From Acholeplasmataceae bacterium (GTDB lineage: Bacteria > Bacillota_I > Bacilli_A > Acholeplasmatales > Acholeplasmataceae): DNA of 32,594 nt. The stretch covers positions 1 through 32,594 of the forward strand of contig DUQW01000003.1 in assembly GCA_012837585.1 (NCBI GenBank), written 5' to 3'. Each line of letters starts with the position of its first letter. Position 1 is the stretch's first letter. The notes under the pieces are model-generated. The model had not been told where the DNA came from and did no database searches. It saw only the letters and a list, made by a program, of their open reading frames with translations. Below are positions 2,900 through 18,741 of the stretch, one piece after another. Position numbers and translations under genes: made by a program.

Positions 2900-3682
2900 T
2901 TATCCGTAAAGTTTGCCCATAACGTAATTAACAAATTTAACTGGTAAGATTCGATATAAGAATAAGAAAAATTTATATTGAACTCCAATAATTTTTCTAA
3001 CCGGAGGTCTTTTTTTCATAATACTACGATACATCACTTTTGAAACATACTCAACTGACATACCGTTTCTTTCGTCTTTTTCCATTACTTTAACTGATAT
3101 ATCAATTCGTTTTCCGTAATGAATTGAATCAGATTTGTTTTTCTTTCTTGCGTCAGTAAATCCAGTTTTAATATCCCCAGGCATAAAGTCAATTACTCTA
3201 ATACCAAAAGGTTTAACTTCAATATTTAATCCTTCGCTATAAAGTGAAATTGCCGCTTTATTAGCTGAATAAAACGTTTGAAATGCAATCGGTAAAACAC
3301 CAGCTACCGATGAAATATTGCAAATTCTACCGTAACCATTTTCTCTCATATAAGGTATTACTCGGTTGGTAATATTAGCCGTACCAAAAAAGTTAATGTC
3401 AAACATACGTTCAGCACTACTAATTTCAGTATCTTCAACCGCACCAGAAATACCCATTCCTGCAGAATTAATTAGAATATCTATTCTTTTTTCTTTTTCG
3501 TATATTTCATCAACAATTTGGTTAATTCGTTCGTGATCAGTAATATCAGCTGAATAATGATTTAGTCCTTCAAGTTCTACTTCTCTTCTTGAAATACCGT
3601 AAACAGTATGACCTTTTCGAAGAAACTTTTTCGCATTAGCAAGCCCAATTCCTGAAGATACTCCAGTAATTAAAACTATCAC
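2900..3682 (-). CDS. short-chain dehydrogenase/reductase; candidate 3-ketodihydrosphingosine reductase-like enzyme by context
   Basis: TGVSSGIG cofactor motif, NSAG, S...YSANK catalytic motif; GTG start overlaps the upstream SPT-like stop codon by 1 nt (TAGTG). Confidence 0.85.
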   Translation of the reverse strand: MIVLITGVSSGIGLANAKKFLRKGHTVYGISRREVELEGLNHYSADITDHERINQIVDEIYEKEKRIDILINSAGMGISGAVEDTEISSAERMFDINFFGTANITNRVIPYMRENGYGRICNISSVAGVLPIAFQTFYSANKAAISLYSEGLNIEVKPFGIRVIDFMPGDIKTGFTDARKKNKSDSIHYGKRIDISVKVMEKDERNGMSVEYVSKVMYRSIMKKRPPVRKIIGVQYKFFLFLYRILPVKFVNYVMGKLYG

Positions 3683-4875
3683 TACTCATCACCCTCAATT
3701 TCAGGATAATTTAATACGATATTGGCAATAATTTCAACCGCCTTATCAATAATTTCATGAGTATGAGTTGCCATTAAACTAACTCTAATTAAACATTCTC
3801 CCTTTGGAGTTGCTGGTGGAATAACAGGGTTAACATAAACACCATGTTCAAATAATTCTAAACAGATTTTAAATGTTCTAATCATTTTATATGTATAAAT
3901 CGGAATAATTGGAGTTTCAGATTCAATAATTGGAACGCCTAATTCTTTTAATCTTTTTCTCATATAATTAGCATTATCAGCTAATTTTTTAACTCTCTCT
4001 GGATTTTCTTTTAAAATATCTAAAGCCGCATTAGCACTAGCCGTATTTGCAGGTGGAATCGCAGCTGAGAAAATATAAGGACGAGAATTATGGCGAATGT
4101 AATCTACTACTTTTCTTGATGCAACTACATATCCACCAATTGAAGCTAATGATTTTGAGAATGTCCCCATAATAATATCAACTTCATCTTCTAATCCAAA
4201 ATAATGAGCCGTACCTTTTCCGTTTGGTCCAATAGTACCAAATCCGTGGGCATCATCAACCATAACTCTAGCACCGTATTTTTTAGCAAGTCTTACGATT
4301 TCAGGAAGATTAGCAATATCACCGCCCATTGAGAAAACACCGTCAGTTACGATTAATTTTCCCATATTAGGATCAGCATTTGCTAATAATCTTTCTAAAT
4401 CTTCCATATCGTTATGGTTATAGCGAACCATCTTACCATAAGATAATCTAATTGCATCATAAATTGAGGCGTGGTTTTCCTTATCGCTAAAGATTAAATC
4501 ATTACGACCAACAATAGCCGAGATTATACCTAAGTTAGTTTGAAATCCAGTAGAAAATAAAGTACAATCTTCTTTATCTAAAAAGTCAGCTAAATCACGT
4601 TCTAATTTTAAGTGGATATCTAATGTTCCGTTTAAAAAACGCGATCCAGAAACACCTGTTCCATATTTTTCTAATGCTTTAAGTGAAGCTTTTATAACTC
4701 TTTCATCTGAAGTTAGTCCTAAATAGTTATTAGAACCAAACATCATTACTTGTTTGCCTTCCATATCTACAATAACATCTTGCTTAGTTTGTAGTTGATG
4801 GAAATAAGGGTAAATACCAGCTGCTTTTGATTCATCAGCAATGGTATATTTTACTACTTTATCAAATAAATCCAT
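3682..4875 (-). CDS. alpha-oxoamine synthase family PLP enzyme, serine palmitoyltransferase-like
   Basis: 397 aa; SNNYLGL, GSRFLNGT, DDAHGFG, GTFSKSLASIGG (PLP lysine), and C-terminal VNPVIPPATPKGECLIRVSLMATHT, recalled as typical of bacterial SPTs rather than Kbl. Confidence 0.85.
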   Translation of the reverse strand: MDLFDKVVKYTIADESKAAGIYPYFHQLQTKQDVIVDMEGKQVMMFGSNNYLGLTSDERVIKASLKALEKYGTGVSGSRFLNGTLDIHLKLERDLADFLDKEDCTLFSTGFQTNLGIISAIVGRNDLIFSDKENHASIYDAIRLSYGKMVRYNHNDMEDLERLLANADPNMGKLIVTDGVFSMGGDIANLPEIVRLAKKYGARVMVDDAHGFGTIGPNGKGTAHYFGLEDEVDIIMGTFSKSLASIGGYVVASRKVVDYIRHNSRPYIFSAAIPPANTASANAALDILKENPERVKKLADNANYMRKRLKELGVPIIESETPIIPIYTYKMIRTFKICLELFEHGVYVNPVIPPATPKGECLIRVSLMATHTHEIIDKAVEIIANIVLNYPEIEGDE

Positions 4876-4877
4876 AA

Positions 4878-5909
4878 TTATGCCTCCTGATAAGGTAATT
4901 TAGTTCTTATTCTTTCACGTTTAACTTCTTGTACTTCAACTTTTTCTTCTTGTTTAACTTCTGGTGTAGTACGGAATAATGCTTTAAATAATAATGGAGC
5001 TCCTAATGTTGCCCATAACGCAATTAAGAAATATCTTATCGCGTCAAATCCTAAATTTCTTCTAGCAATAGTTTGTCCAGGGATTACTTCAGCATACGGG
5101 AAAACATATTTTAATCCTTGTTGTAACGCTACAATAACTACTACTCCGATAACAAACTTTAAGATTTGAACCCAAACTCTTTTATCTCTTGGAACAAATT
5201 TAATGTATCTTTTTTCTACAAAATAACCAAAAGCAAAGGCAACAAATGCTCCGGCTGCTTGAAATAATTGTTTATTATATAGTGATTCTATCTTCAAAAA
5301 TAAAATTACTGCCATTCCAGCAACAAATAATGGGATCAACCAAAAACCAACCCACTCTTCTTTTTCAGTTAGTTTAAAGATACTATAAACAATATTAACA
5401 ACAAGATAACCGATAAAAATTCCGGCTATTACGTCTAATAAGTAATGCTGTCCTAAATAAATTCTAGAAAAAGGCACTAATATCACGTTAAGAATTAAGA
5501 AAAATCTAATTAATTTATTTTTAGTTTTCTTCATTATTCCCGTAGTAATCGAGCTTGCGGAATTACTATGTCCTGACGGAAATGAGTAACTAGTATCACC
5601 ATAAGCTTCTGTTGCAGGTGTACCAATACTATGTACTGCAGTTGAATCTTGATAAGGTCTTAGTCTTTTTACTGTTACTTTTAATCCACCAACAATAAAA
5701 GTGCTTCCTAAAAATGCCATTACAAATTGATAAGCCCATTTTTTATCGATTAGCCAATATAATAATACTGCCAAAATAATAAATAAATACGCTTCTCCTA
5801 AATAACTAATATAGATAAATCCTTTATCTACAATAGGGTTTCCACTTAGTTTTTGTATAAATTCTACTATTCTAAGTTCGTACCATGTAAAATTATGTGC
5901 TAAGTTCAT
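4878..5909 (-). CDS. PAP2-superfamily membrane phosphatase
   Basis: 343 aa, multiple TM segments; KVTVKRLRP, SFPSGHSNS and SRIYLGQHYLLDV motifs. Confidence 0.9.
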   Translation of the reverse strand: MNLAHNFTWYELRIVEFIQKLSGNPIVDKGFIYISYLGEAYLFIILAVLLYWLIDKKWAYQFVMAFLGSTFIVGGLKVTVKRLRPYQDSTAVHSIGTPATEAYGDTSYSFPSGHSNSASSITTGIMKKTKNKLIRFFLILNVILVPFSRIYLGQHYLLDVIAGIFIGYLVVNIVYSIFKLTEKEEWVGFWLIPLFVAGMAVILFLKIESLYNKQLFQAAGAFVAFAFGYFVEKRYIKFVPRDKRVWVQILKFVIGVVVIVALQQGLKYVFPYAEVIPGQTIARRNLGFDAIRYFLIALWATLGAPLLFKALFRTTPEVKQEEKVEVQEVKRERIRTKLPYQEA

Positions 5910-5923
5910 GTTTTTCCTCTCCT

Positions 5924-6774
5924 TTATCTCATTAAATTATAATATTTAACAGATTTATTGTCAATTCTAAATTGATTGTCGACAATTATATGAAACTTTT
6001 TTAAAAGTTTAATTATTTCTTTGGCCCATTTATAGCCTTCATTTTTTAGTTTTTCAGCAAATTTACGATCAAAATACATTGACCTAAGTATATTAATTGA
6101 ATTTAGACGAGAAAATGGGTGACCGTGTTTAAAATCAATTATCGTAATATCTTCCCCTTAATATTGTTTGTAGTTAAATTTAGTGGCAATTGGCACTGCT
6201 AAAATTAAATCGCAATTTTCATCTAATAATGGGTGAATTGGATTATTATCAATAAAACCACCGTCAACATAGTAACCATCACCATTTTAGTACTACCAAA
6301 CAACATTGGAACTGAAGCTTAAGCTCTTACTACTCTAAATGGATTTTCAACTCCATTTAATAAAATATACTTTTTCTCACCATGAAAATAATTAACTTGA
6401 TACTTAAGTTTTGGTGATTTAACTTGTTTTACTGTTCTATATCCACGAATTTTAGATTCTTTAATTTTGGCAATGCTAATATCAGAAGTCATTAAATGAT
6501 ATAGCAAAGTGGTATTTACTAAACTTTTTCGTTCGTTTTTAAAATAAACCATATTTCCTTTATAAAGATTTTCTTTATCAAGTTTTTGCCATAAGTTTTC
6601 TATCTCCTCATATAATAGACCAGCCATTATCATTAAAAGATTAACTGCACCGATTGATTAGCCAGATGCTACATCAATTTCTTTAAGTAAGTCTTCTTAC
6701 ATAAATGCTTTAATAACACCTACTTGATAAACGCAAAAAACTCCGCCCCCACCTAACATTAATCCTACTTTCAT
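5924..6774 (-). pseudogene. degenerate patatin-like phospholipase
   Basis: Minus-strand translation MKVGLMLGGGGVFCVYQVGVIKAFM*EDLLKEIDVASG*SIGAVN...RVVRA*ASVPMLFGSTK(frameshift)NGDGYYVDGGFIDNNPIHPLL...NYKQY*GEDITIIDF...; in-frame TAA at 6697-6699, 6658-6660, 6319-6321, 6158-6160 and a frame change with TAA near 6287. Confidence 0.88.
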
Positions 6775-16537: not shown

Positions 16538-17713
16538 TTAAATTATTCCTAATTCTTTAGATAGTTCGTAGATTTGTTTAATTGCAAAGTCTAGTTCTTC
16601 TTTTGTATGTTCGCTTGATAGCATCATTCTTATTCTTGCAGTTCCTTTTGGAACAGTTGGAAATACTATTCCAGAAGTATAGACACCGCGCTCTAATAAT
16701 TTTTTAGCGAAATCCATAGTTTTAGCTTCATCATAAATCATCAGTGGCGTAATAGGGGTTTGGGTTTTACCTAAAGTAAAGCCTAACTCTTTTAATTTAG
16801 ATTGGAAATATTTAGTGTTATCCCAAAGTTTTTTTGAGTATTCATCAGTTTCCTCTAACATGGTAATAGCTTCAATGGCTGCACCACAGGCTGCAGGCAT
16901 CATTGAAGTTGAAAATAAAAGTGGACGTCCGCGATGTAGTAAGTAATCTTTCATTTCTGATGATCCAGCAATATATGCTCCAACAACACCAATCGCTTTT
17001 GATAATGTTCCCATAATATAATCAACTTGGCCATGTAAGTTAAAATGGTCAACAGTTCCGCGTCCATTTTCACCTAAAACGCCTGATCCATGAGCATCAT
17101 CAACATAAACTTTAGCATCATATTTTTTAGCTAGTCTTACAATTTCAGGAAGATTTGCAATATCTCCGTCCATTGAAAAAACTCCATCAGTAATGATTAA
17201 AACTTCGTTATAGTCTTTTCTTCTTTCTTTTAAGATTTGTTCAAGAGCTTTCATATCACTGTGAGGGAAAACCGCTTTATCAGCACGTGAAAGTCTAACA
17301 CCATCAATAATTGATGCGTGATTTAATTCATCAGAGATAATTAAATCACCTCTGTCAGTAATCGCTTGAATAACTCCAAGATTAGCTAAAAATCCTGATT
17401 GAAAGACTAGTGCTGCCTCTTCACGTTTAAATTTAGCAAGGCGCTCATCTAACTCTTCATGGATTTCAATATTTCCACTAATCGTTCTAACTGCTCCTGA
17501 ACCAACACCGTATTTGTCGATTGCTTTTTTAGCAGCTTCTTTCATTCTTGGATGATTAGCAAATCCTAAATAGTTATTACTGCATAAGTTAATAACTTGT
17601 TTGCCATTTAATGTAATAACTGCTTTATTTGGTGAACTACTAACAGATAGCTTACGGTAGACACCTTCTTTTTTTAATTCTTCTATTTTTAACTTAATAC
17701 TATTTTCTTTCAT
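16538..17713 (-). CDS. kbl: glycine C-acetyltransferase (2-amino-3-ketobutyrate CoA ligase)
   Basis: 391 aa AOS-family PLP enzyme, [28 protein letters not shown]; overlaps tdh by 4 nt. Confidence 0.92.
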
Positions 17714-18741
17714 AATTTTAAAACTACCTTTCCTGATTTTCCTTCGTTCATAACTTTAATTCCTTTTTCAAATTCATCAAAAGGAAAAATGTGTGTAACA
17801 AATTTATCAAATTGGAGTTTTTTAGATTTTAATAACTCGTCAATTTGTTGCCATGTTTTAGGAAGTAACCTTCCAGTTACTCCGTAGATATGTAATCCTT
17901 TGAAAACAACTTTATTAAAATCAACATTTAATTTATTATTAAAAGCTCCTAATATAGAAATTCCTCCACCAGGTTTTACATAATCAAATGATTCTTCGAC
18001 GGCTCCAACATTTCCAGAAAAATCTATAACAACATCTACACCTTTATTATTAGTGTGTTTTTTAATATATTCTAATGTATTTACTTCTTTGGGATTAATA
18101 ACATGATGAGCACCAATTTCTTTAGCTAAATTGATGCGGTACGGATTTACTTCTGTCGCAAAAATTCTTTTTGCTTCACTAGCTATTGCTACATCAATAC
18201 CCATTAAACCAATTGGTCCGCATCCAATAATTAAAACATCCTTATCTTTTACATCAAAATGTTTTACCGCATGAACTGCATTTCCTAGTGGCTCTAATAC
18301 AGATAAATATGTCGGATCTAAGTTTGACGTGTCGATATATAAATTTTCTTCAGGAATTTTCATATATTCAGCAAATGCTCCGTCCATATCAACCCCAATA
18401 ACCTTAGTTTTTTCACAAATATGGCCATTTCCTGTTAAACAATATTCACATTTCCCGCAAATAATATGTGATTCACTTGATACTATATCCCCAATTTTAA
18501 CTTTTGAAACATTAGAACCAATTTTGACTACTTTACCACTAAATTCATGACCGACTGTAAGTGGCGGATTGATTCTATTTTGACTCCATGCATCCCAGTT
18601 ATAAATATGCAAATCTGTTCCGCAAATAGAGACTGAAATAACTTTAATTAATACTTCATTAGCTTCTAAATTGCGCGGTATCGGTTTTTCCCCTCTCGTA
18701 AAACCTTTAGCGCGTTCCGTCTTTAAAATTACTTTCATCAT
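17710..18741 (-). CDS. tdh: L-threonine 3-dehydrogenase (zinc-dependent MDR)
   Basis: [20 protein letters not shown], structural zinc Cys set [24 protein letters not shown]. Confidence 0.94.

Follow-up and report, generated by a model that had tools for sequence, protein, structure and literature searches.

Two described bacterial sphingolipid systems come closest to a three-gene locus in a 32,594 nt stretch of the genome of a wall-less Acholeplasmataceae bacterium (assembly GCA_012837585.1, contig DUQW01000003.1, positions 1 to 32,594; hereafter the window). The locus encodes a PAP2-family lipid phosphatase, an alpha-oxoamine synthase (AOS) that we predict to be a serine palmitoyltransferase (SPT), and a short-chain dehydrogenase/reductase (SDR) resembling 3-ketosphinganine reductase (KDSR). 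The nearest system by hidden Markov model (HMM) scores, Protein Data Bank (PDB) search and fold is that of the Bacteroidota, with the CFB-type SPT of Sphingobacterium multivorum as its solved representative and, as in the window, a KDSR-type SDR at the second step. It differs in belonging to another phylum, in the CFB equivalog cut-off, which the window SPT does not reach, and in gene arrangement, i.e. the SPT (BT_0870) and KDSR (BT_0972) genes of Bacteroides thetaiotaomicron are not clustered (PMC9278070), whereas in the window SPT and SDR overlap in one operon.

The second system is the proteobacterial ceramide operon (aasR-acpR-spt-epimerase CerR-N-acyltransferase) of Caulobacter, Sphingomonas, Escherichia coli BL21 and a Klebsiella plasmid. 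It shares with the window the SPT-catalysed first step, a homologous N-acyltransferase of the YghO family (GNAT-type) and the probable use of acyl-acyl carrier protein (acyl-ACP) as donor (PMC9386255). In the window, however, a KdsR-type SDR takes the place of the NDUFA9-like CerR, the SPT has neither a dedicated ACP nor an acyl-ACP synthetase beside it, and the N-acyltransferase is unlinked.

Ceramide phosphorylglycerol has been reported from Acholeplasma axanthum, and no gene linked to sphingolipids of Mollicutes, including an Acholeplasma with SPT, was found in the literature searched. One review mentions 'Mycoplasma spp.' as having a sphingophospholipid (PMC10626005), and Spt-like proteins have been reported from up to 40 phyla in a text that does not name Bacillota or Firmicutes (PMC11334938). 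SPT and bacterial sphingolipids as such are known; for Bacillota and Mollicutes, an SPT-KDSR operon with overlapping genes is undescribed in the literature searched. The locus appears to represent a pathway already known, in a Bacillota branch with a compact SPT-KDSR operon.

Identity of the AOS

The AOS scored 551 bits against the NCBIfam model of CFB-type SPT (NF047600), followed by Kbl (417), beta-proteobacterial SPT (410) and BioF (403). Its top PDB match was the S. multivorum SPT (3a2b/8guh, 443 bits, 1e-131), with Kbl and 8-amino-7-oxononanoate synthase (AONS) proteins reaching at most 288 bits. The AlphaFold model (pLDDT 87.6) likewise matched 8guh and 3a2b best (TM 0.94, 51-52% identity), and Kbl and AONS ranked next at about 38% identity.

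Phylogenetic analysis gave the same picture. In a 34-row tree, rebuilt from a 58-row tree after removing long-branched AOS rows, the Bacillota SPT-like proteins and four reference SPTs (two solved structures, 3a2b and 2jg2, and two SPTs by curated model score) formed a single clade with support of 100/100, apart from Kbl, BioF and HemA; the 58-row tree agreed on the placement of the AOS. On whether the Bacteroidota SPTs are the nearest sister of the Bacillota SPTs, the tree was undecided [approximately unbiased (AU) test, p 0.48]. At the active site, the SPT residues H135, D207, H210, K241 (the pyridoxal phosphate lysine; window numbering), R364, S78, N82, S240, S242, N349 and S366 are identical in 89/89 Bacillota rows, save for one row deviating at column 366. 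Six columns separate SPT from all Kbl rows (S78, N82, F239, S242, N349 and S366), and at these at least 88 of the 89 Bacillota sequences carry the SPT residue.

The possibility that the AOS is instead the organism's Kbl, acting with a threonine-degradation SDR, or its BioF has to be considered given the common fold family, within which solved Kbls are 37-38% identical to the AOS model, and the 417 and 403 bits scored against the two models. However, the window encodes a separate Kbl above the family cut-offs, which adjoins threonine dehydrogenase (Tdh), places among the Kbls in the tree and serves as an in-window control. The predicted SPT neither clades with Kbl nor is linked to Tdh, and it differs from the Kbl-Tdh threonine pathway in its clade, its neighbours and its active-site columns; at column 78 it has S where Kbl has a diagnostic V, and AU tests rejected forced grouping with Kbl (p 0.00095) as well as with BioF (p 0.0017). 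We consider this identity hardly credible. Among the candidates tried for the AOS, Kbl, BioF, HemA, CqsA and cysteate acyltransferase were excluded by scores, trees and residues. The AOS is thus a predicted SPT of a Bacillota branch.

The SDR partner and its linkage to SPT

The best of 212 matching NCBIfam models for the SDR was NF049977 KdsR (3-ketodihydrosphingosine reductase; 237 bits), as was also the case in one family relative, and both the Rossmann motif TGVSSGIG (TGxxxGxG) and the catalytic motif YSANK (YxxxK) are present. We class the protein as a KDSR-like SDR only, with predicted reductase activity on 3-ketosphinganine.

The pairing itself recurs widely. We examined 89 Bacillota SPT loci, drawn from a genome-collection scan and from family genomes, and an SDR directly adjoins SPT in 62 of them (41 with SPT then SDR, 13 with SDR then SPT and 8 divergent), most of the SPT-then-SDR loci having an overlap of 1-20 nt or a gap of 2 nt. 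In the comparison set, 11 of 1046 other ORFs score >100 bits to the SDR, and these are mostly second SDRs near SPT or duplicates of counted loci; the adjacency is therefore not due to chance. Since it is kept while order and orientation vary, SPT and SDR are probably functionally coupled, and the recurrence of the pair identifies it as the functional unit of the locus. One survey found the pair intact in 15/15 SPT-positive family genomes.

Both assignments had been put forward in an original prediction made from the letters of the window. It held the AOS to be closer to bacterial SPTs than to Kbl or BioF, citing GTFSKSLASIGG and VNPVIPPATPKGECLIRVSLMATHT, both of which are present in the AOS translation; HMM scores, PDB search, trees, AU tests and active-site columns agree with it, and in the phylogeny against SPT, Kbl and BioF that it proposed, the AOS fell inside neither of the latter two. 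Its candidate 3-ketosphinganine reductase is KDSR-like by the best curated model.

Other recurrent SPT neighbours are lineage-specific, i.e. a formate/nitrite transporter, a lipid kinase, a patatin, an ABC transporter with FtsX domain and a D-2-hydroxyacid dehydrogenase. Elsewhere in the family, the SPT-SDR pair is followed by formate/nitrite transporter, diacylglycerol kinase (DAGK)-type lipid kinase and patatin. A formate/nitrite transporter-family protein is encoded directly 3' of SPT-SDR in many Acholeplasmataceae (L042, L046, L049 and nine other loci), and three loci have a DAGK-type lipid kinase gene behind it. Seven Clostridia loci have two different SDR genes near SPT, the second SDR forming its own clade.

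Organization of the gene unit and position of PAP2

The features of the window are listed in Table 1. Transcription runs from PAP2 through the AOS to the SDR, all three ORFs being full-length; PAP2 and AOS are separated by 2 nt (4876-4877), and the AOS stop codon overlaps the SDR start by 1 nt (TAGTG).

Table 1. Coordinates of the three-gene unit, its predicted signals and the Kbl of the window
Feature	Position	Strand	Evidence
PAP2-family lipid phosphatase, 343 aa	5909-4878	minus	Pfam PF01569 2.7e-21
AOS, predicted SPT of the Bacillota branch, 397 aa	4875-3682	minus	Pfam Aminotran_1_2 1.3e-61
SDR, 3-ketosphinganine reductase-like, 260 aa, GTG start	3682-2900	minus	PF00106 adh_short 2.6e-43
Predicted sigma70-type promoter TTGACA-17-TATAAT	5964-5936	minus	12/12 consensus matches
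AGGAGG, predicted Shine-Dalgarno of the SPT gene, within the last PAP2 codons	4888-4883	minus	read in sequence
Terminator-like hairpin with T-rich tail, between SDR and alaS	2754-2725	minus	11 pairs, 4 GC
Second AOS, Kbl, adjoining Tdh	16538-17713 (Kbl-Tdh 16538-18741)		passes Kbl and BioF/Kbl-family cut-offs

The promoter lies 27 nt 5' of the PAP2 ATG and is the sole perfect site of its kind in the window (0.07 expected window-wide); its hexamers and 17-nt spacing are kept in the congeners L037 and L038. For the hairpin, about 1.6 such sites are expected by chance in the scanned region. The C-terminal LPYQ of PAP2, which overlaps the Shine-Dalgarno sequence of the SPT gene, is conserved in all three congeners. 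By consensus matches, PAP2-AOS-SDR is a predicted single unit, bounded by the promoter at its 5' end and the hairpin at its 3' end. Upstream lies a patatin-like phospholipase remnant (5924-6633, minus strand), which is broken in the window and keeps the promoter in its 3' end; the patatin gene 5' of PAP2 is unbroken in L037 and L038 (287-288 aa).

The integral membrane PAP2 protein has intact phosphatase motifs, i.e. KX6RP (KVTVKRLRP), PSGH and SRX5HX3D (SRIYLGQHYLLD), which are conserved in the congeners. Its gene adjoins SPT in 3/3 genomes of the window's genus; the remaining 86 loci all lack this adjacency. Furthermore, no PAP2 was found in an SPT-positive genome that is 99% complete (G004), nor in one that is 85% complete (G010). 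Because PAP2 joined only in the window's genus and G004 does without any, we place it outside the functional unit: it is a local addition that joined the SPT-SDR pair in this genus, and a role in the core pathway is not supported. It is also the only PAP2 of the window's genome and therefore at least as likely to serve the formation of phosphatidylglycerol or diacylglycerol in general.

An integral step for PAP2, with a phosphoglycerol intermediate or the phosphate of a sphingoid base or ceramide as its substrate, or with transfer of a head group, would fit its position 2 nt from SPT in a shared transcription unit and its constant adjacency within the genus. A weak match to PAP2_C (2.7e-5, below the cut-off), which we take to be a sphingomyelin-synthase-type domain, points the same way, as do the DAGK-type lipid kinases in or beside the SPT operons of some other Acholeplasmataceae and of Parabacteroides. 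However, the classical phosphatase motifs, the lack of adjacency outside the genus, the two genomes in which PAP2 was not found and its status as sole PAP2, which may make it the phosphatidylglycerophosphate or phosphatidate phosphatase, all argue against such a step, and we regard it as unlikely.

The original prediction fared accordingly: gene order, ORFs and both junctions are as it described, while its proposal that PAP2 acts in the pathway is not borne out. Of the PAP2-SPT-KDSR cluster that it suggested, the survey upheld the SPT-SDR part and confined the adjacency of PAP2 to the window's genus.

Acyl supply and N-acylation

Searches of the organism's genome were run on 1045 ORFs. No AMP-binding acyl-CoA synthetase (PF00501) was found, the control being positive in 12/14 genomes, while PlsX, PlsY, CdsA, PgsA and ACP were found together with three full DegV/FakB proteins. 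A classical type II fatty acid synthesis system was considered and rejected, as the FabF match proved to be a thiolase and FabD, FabZ, AccB and AccC queries gave no matches among the 1045 ORFs. Given ACP, PlsX and three FakB-like proteins in a genome where no acyl-CoA synthetase is detectable, acyl-ACP is most likely the acyl donor of the predicted SPT; proteobacterial SPTs prefer acyl-ACP (PMC9386255). In two Clostridia loci, a DegV/FakB-like gene lies two genes from SPT and forms a row with SDR and SPT, an arrangement that ties fatty-acid scavenging to SPT.

For N-acylation, the N-acyltransferase of the Klebsiella plasmid SPT operon was used as query and gave a single match (G000:C19:4343-5473, 1.4e-29). 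The encoded protein is 40% identical to a GNAT of Bacteroides finegoldii and matches E. coli YghO (9e-36) and an SPT-linked GNAT of Streptomyces (4e-37), whose gene stands directly behind SPT in an operon. Both yghO and Caulobacter CC_1154 are listed as the ceramide N-acyltransferase gene (aca), required for dihydroceramide (PMC9386255). Homologues occur in 26/26 near-complete SPT-positive family genomes. We therefore consider a function as ceramide N-acyltransferase likely but unproven.

Homologues are also present in eight genomes without SPT and in genomes of family f5; in SPT-negative species the enzyme may act on scavenged sphingoid bases or on another amine. In E. coli K-12, YghO (b2981) carries the annotation of a putative DNA-binding transcriptional regulator although it is a member of the ceramide N-acyltransferase family, and its gene abuts an IS5.

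Proposed pathway

We judge it very probable, from homology and gene order, that the SPT-SDR pair makes a sphingoid base, with acyl-ACP as donor, N-acylation by an unlinked enzyme and PAP2 as a joined phosphatase. The SPT would form 3-ketosphinganine by condensing L-serine and a long-chain acyl thioester, and the SDR would reduce this ketone with NADPH to sphinganine. By the simplest route, the acyl chain would come from a scavenged fatty acid, passing through acyl-phosphate and acyl-ACP to the SPT. The GNAT-type protein G000:C19 probably N-acylates the base to dihydroceramide, as suggested by homology, and PAP2 would be a lipid phosphatase of the transcription unit that may serve general phospholipid synthesis.

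Several observations weigh against this pathway. With 551 bits, the AOS stays under the curated NF047600 cut-off of 640 and fails as a CFB-type equivalog; that cut-off was reached by 0/88 family genomes and is passed by the Parabacteroides SPT (684). Since no family member reaches it, we assign the AOS to a Bacillota SPT branch instead of to the CFB equivalog. Likewise, the SDR remains below the NF049977 cut-off of 400 and fails that equivalog assignment, and 27 of the 89 loci have SPT without an adjoining SDR. The N-acyltransferase homologue is also present in 9/11 near-complete SPT-negative family genomes outside genus g7 (co-occurrence not significant, p 0.08), and therefore its co-occurrence with SPT is no proof of its role. 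Finally, no conserved head-group enzyme was found beside SPT across the examined loci.

The amino acid used by the AOS is not fixed by sequence alone. A long-chain AOS of the SPT clade might use alanine, glycine, cysteate or another amino acid and yield a 1-deoxy base, a sulfono-base or some other aminoketone in place of a canonical sphingoid base. For Spt-like proteins, alanine and further amino acids are considered possible in a study of the Black Sea (PMC11334938), and the Bacillota SPTs form a lineage of their own that scores below the CFB equivalog cut-off. However, all inspected active-site columns match the reference SPTs, including S78, N82, S240, S242, N349 and S366, and the match to cysteate acyltransferase reaches only 265 bits as opposed to 443 bits for SPT. 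Such a substrate appears quite improbable, and L-serine is retained as the predicted substrate in the proposed pathway.

Distribution

SPT was found in 40/59 family genomes outside genus g7 (39 over 500 bits and one truncated copy) and in 0/29 genomes of the reduced genus g7 (0.3-0.9 Mb), presumably the phytoplasmas. It was present in 15/215 genomes of a phylum sample, and named metagenome-assembled genomes matching in the genome-collection scan belong to Izemoplasmatales and many Clostridia. A largely inherited Bacillota sphingolipid pathway, with an SPT-KDSR operon and with acyl-ACP supplied from scavenged fatty acids via FakB, PlsX and ACP but no acyl-CoA, extending across Acholeplasmataceae, Izemoplasmatales and many Clostridia of gut and rumen, is conceivable, and we propose it tentatively.

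Among cultured relatives, Peloplasma aerotolerans is SPT-positive (contigs JAQVBA010000017 and NZ_JASCXW010000042). Peloplasma is closest to Mariniplasma of the Acholeplasmataceae, and the fatty acids of P. aerotolerans include 3-OH C18:0 (4.1%) and 3-OH C16:0 (1.8%) (PMC11122141). These hydroxy acids would fit amide linkage, but are no proof of it.

Three further loci were noted during the scan. A contig titled Syntrophus aciditrophicus (DYLD01000051.1) carries an SPT that falls within a group of Izemoplasma-type sequences and is probably mis-binned. On a plasmid of the actinomycete Streptomyces sp. NBC_01001, overlapping genes for an SPT-like protein, a GNAT N-acyltransferase, an epimerase and a condensation-domain protein form one row, a putative cluster for a sphingolipid-like or related lipid. 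The conjugative IncFIB plasmid of Klebsiella michiganensis (NZ_CP106839.1, 108000-124500) carries an apparently whole proteobacterial ceramide operon, encoding an SPT (613 bits, over the cut-off), ACP, a CerR-like epimerase, an acyl-AMP ligase and a YghO-like N-acyltransferase, and further TMPK-like proteins, a flippase and LptF/G.

Implications

Sphingolipids are best known from animals and Bacteroides and hardly documented in the uncultured Bacillota that carry the SPT-SDR pair. The pair is a concrete candidate for the origin of Mollicutes sphingolipids and is present in a culturable isolate. It also raises a question of SPT chemistry, i.e. whether acyl-ACP is used by the SPT in a genome without an acyl-CoA synthetase. 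Considering that the SPT lineage extends to uncultured Clostridia, many of them from animal guts, sphingolipids exchanged by gut bacteria with their host may come from further sources; if this is true, the Bacteroidota would not be the sole sphingolipid makers of the gut.

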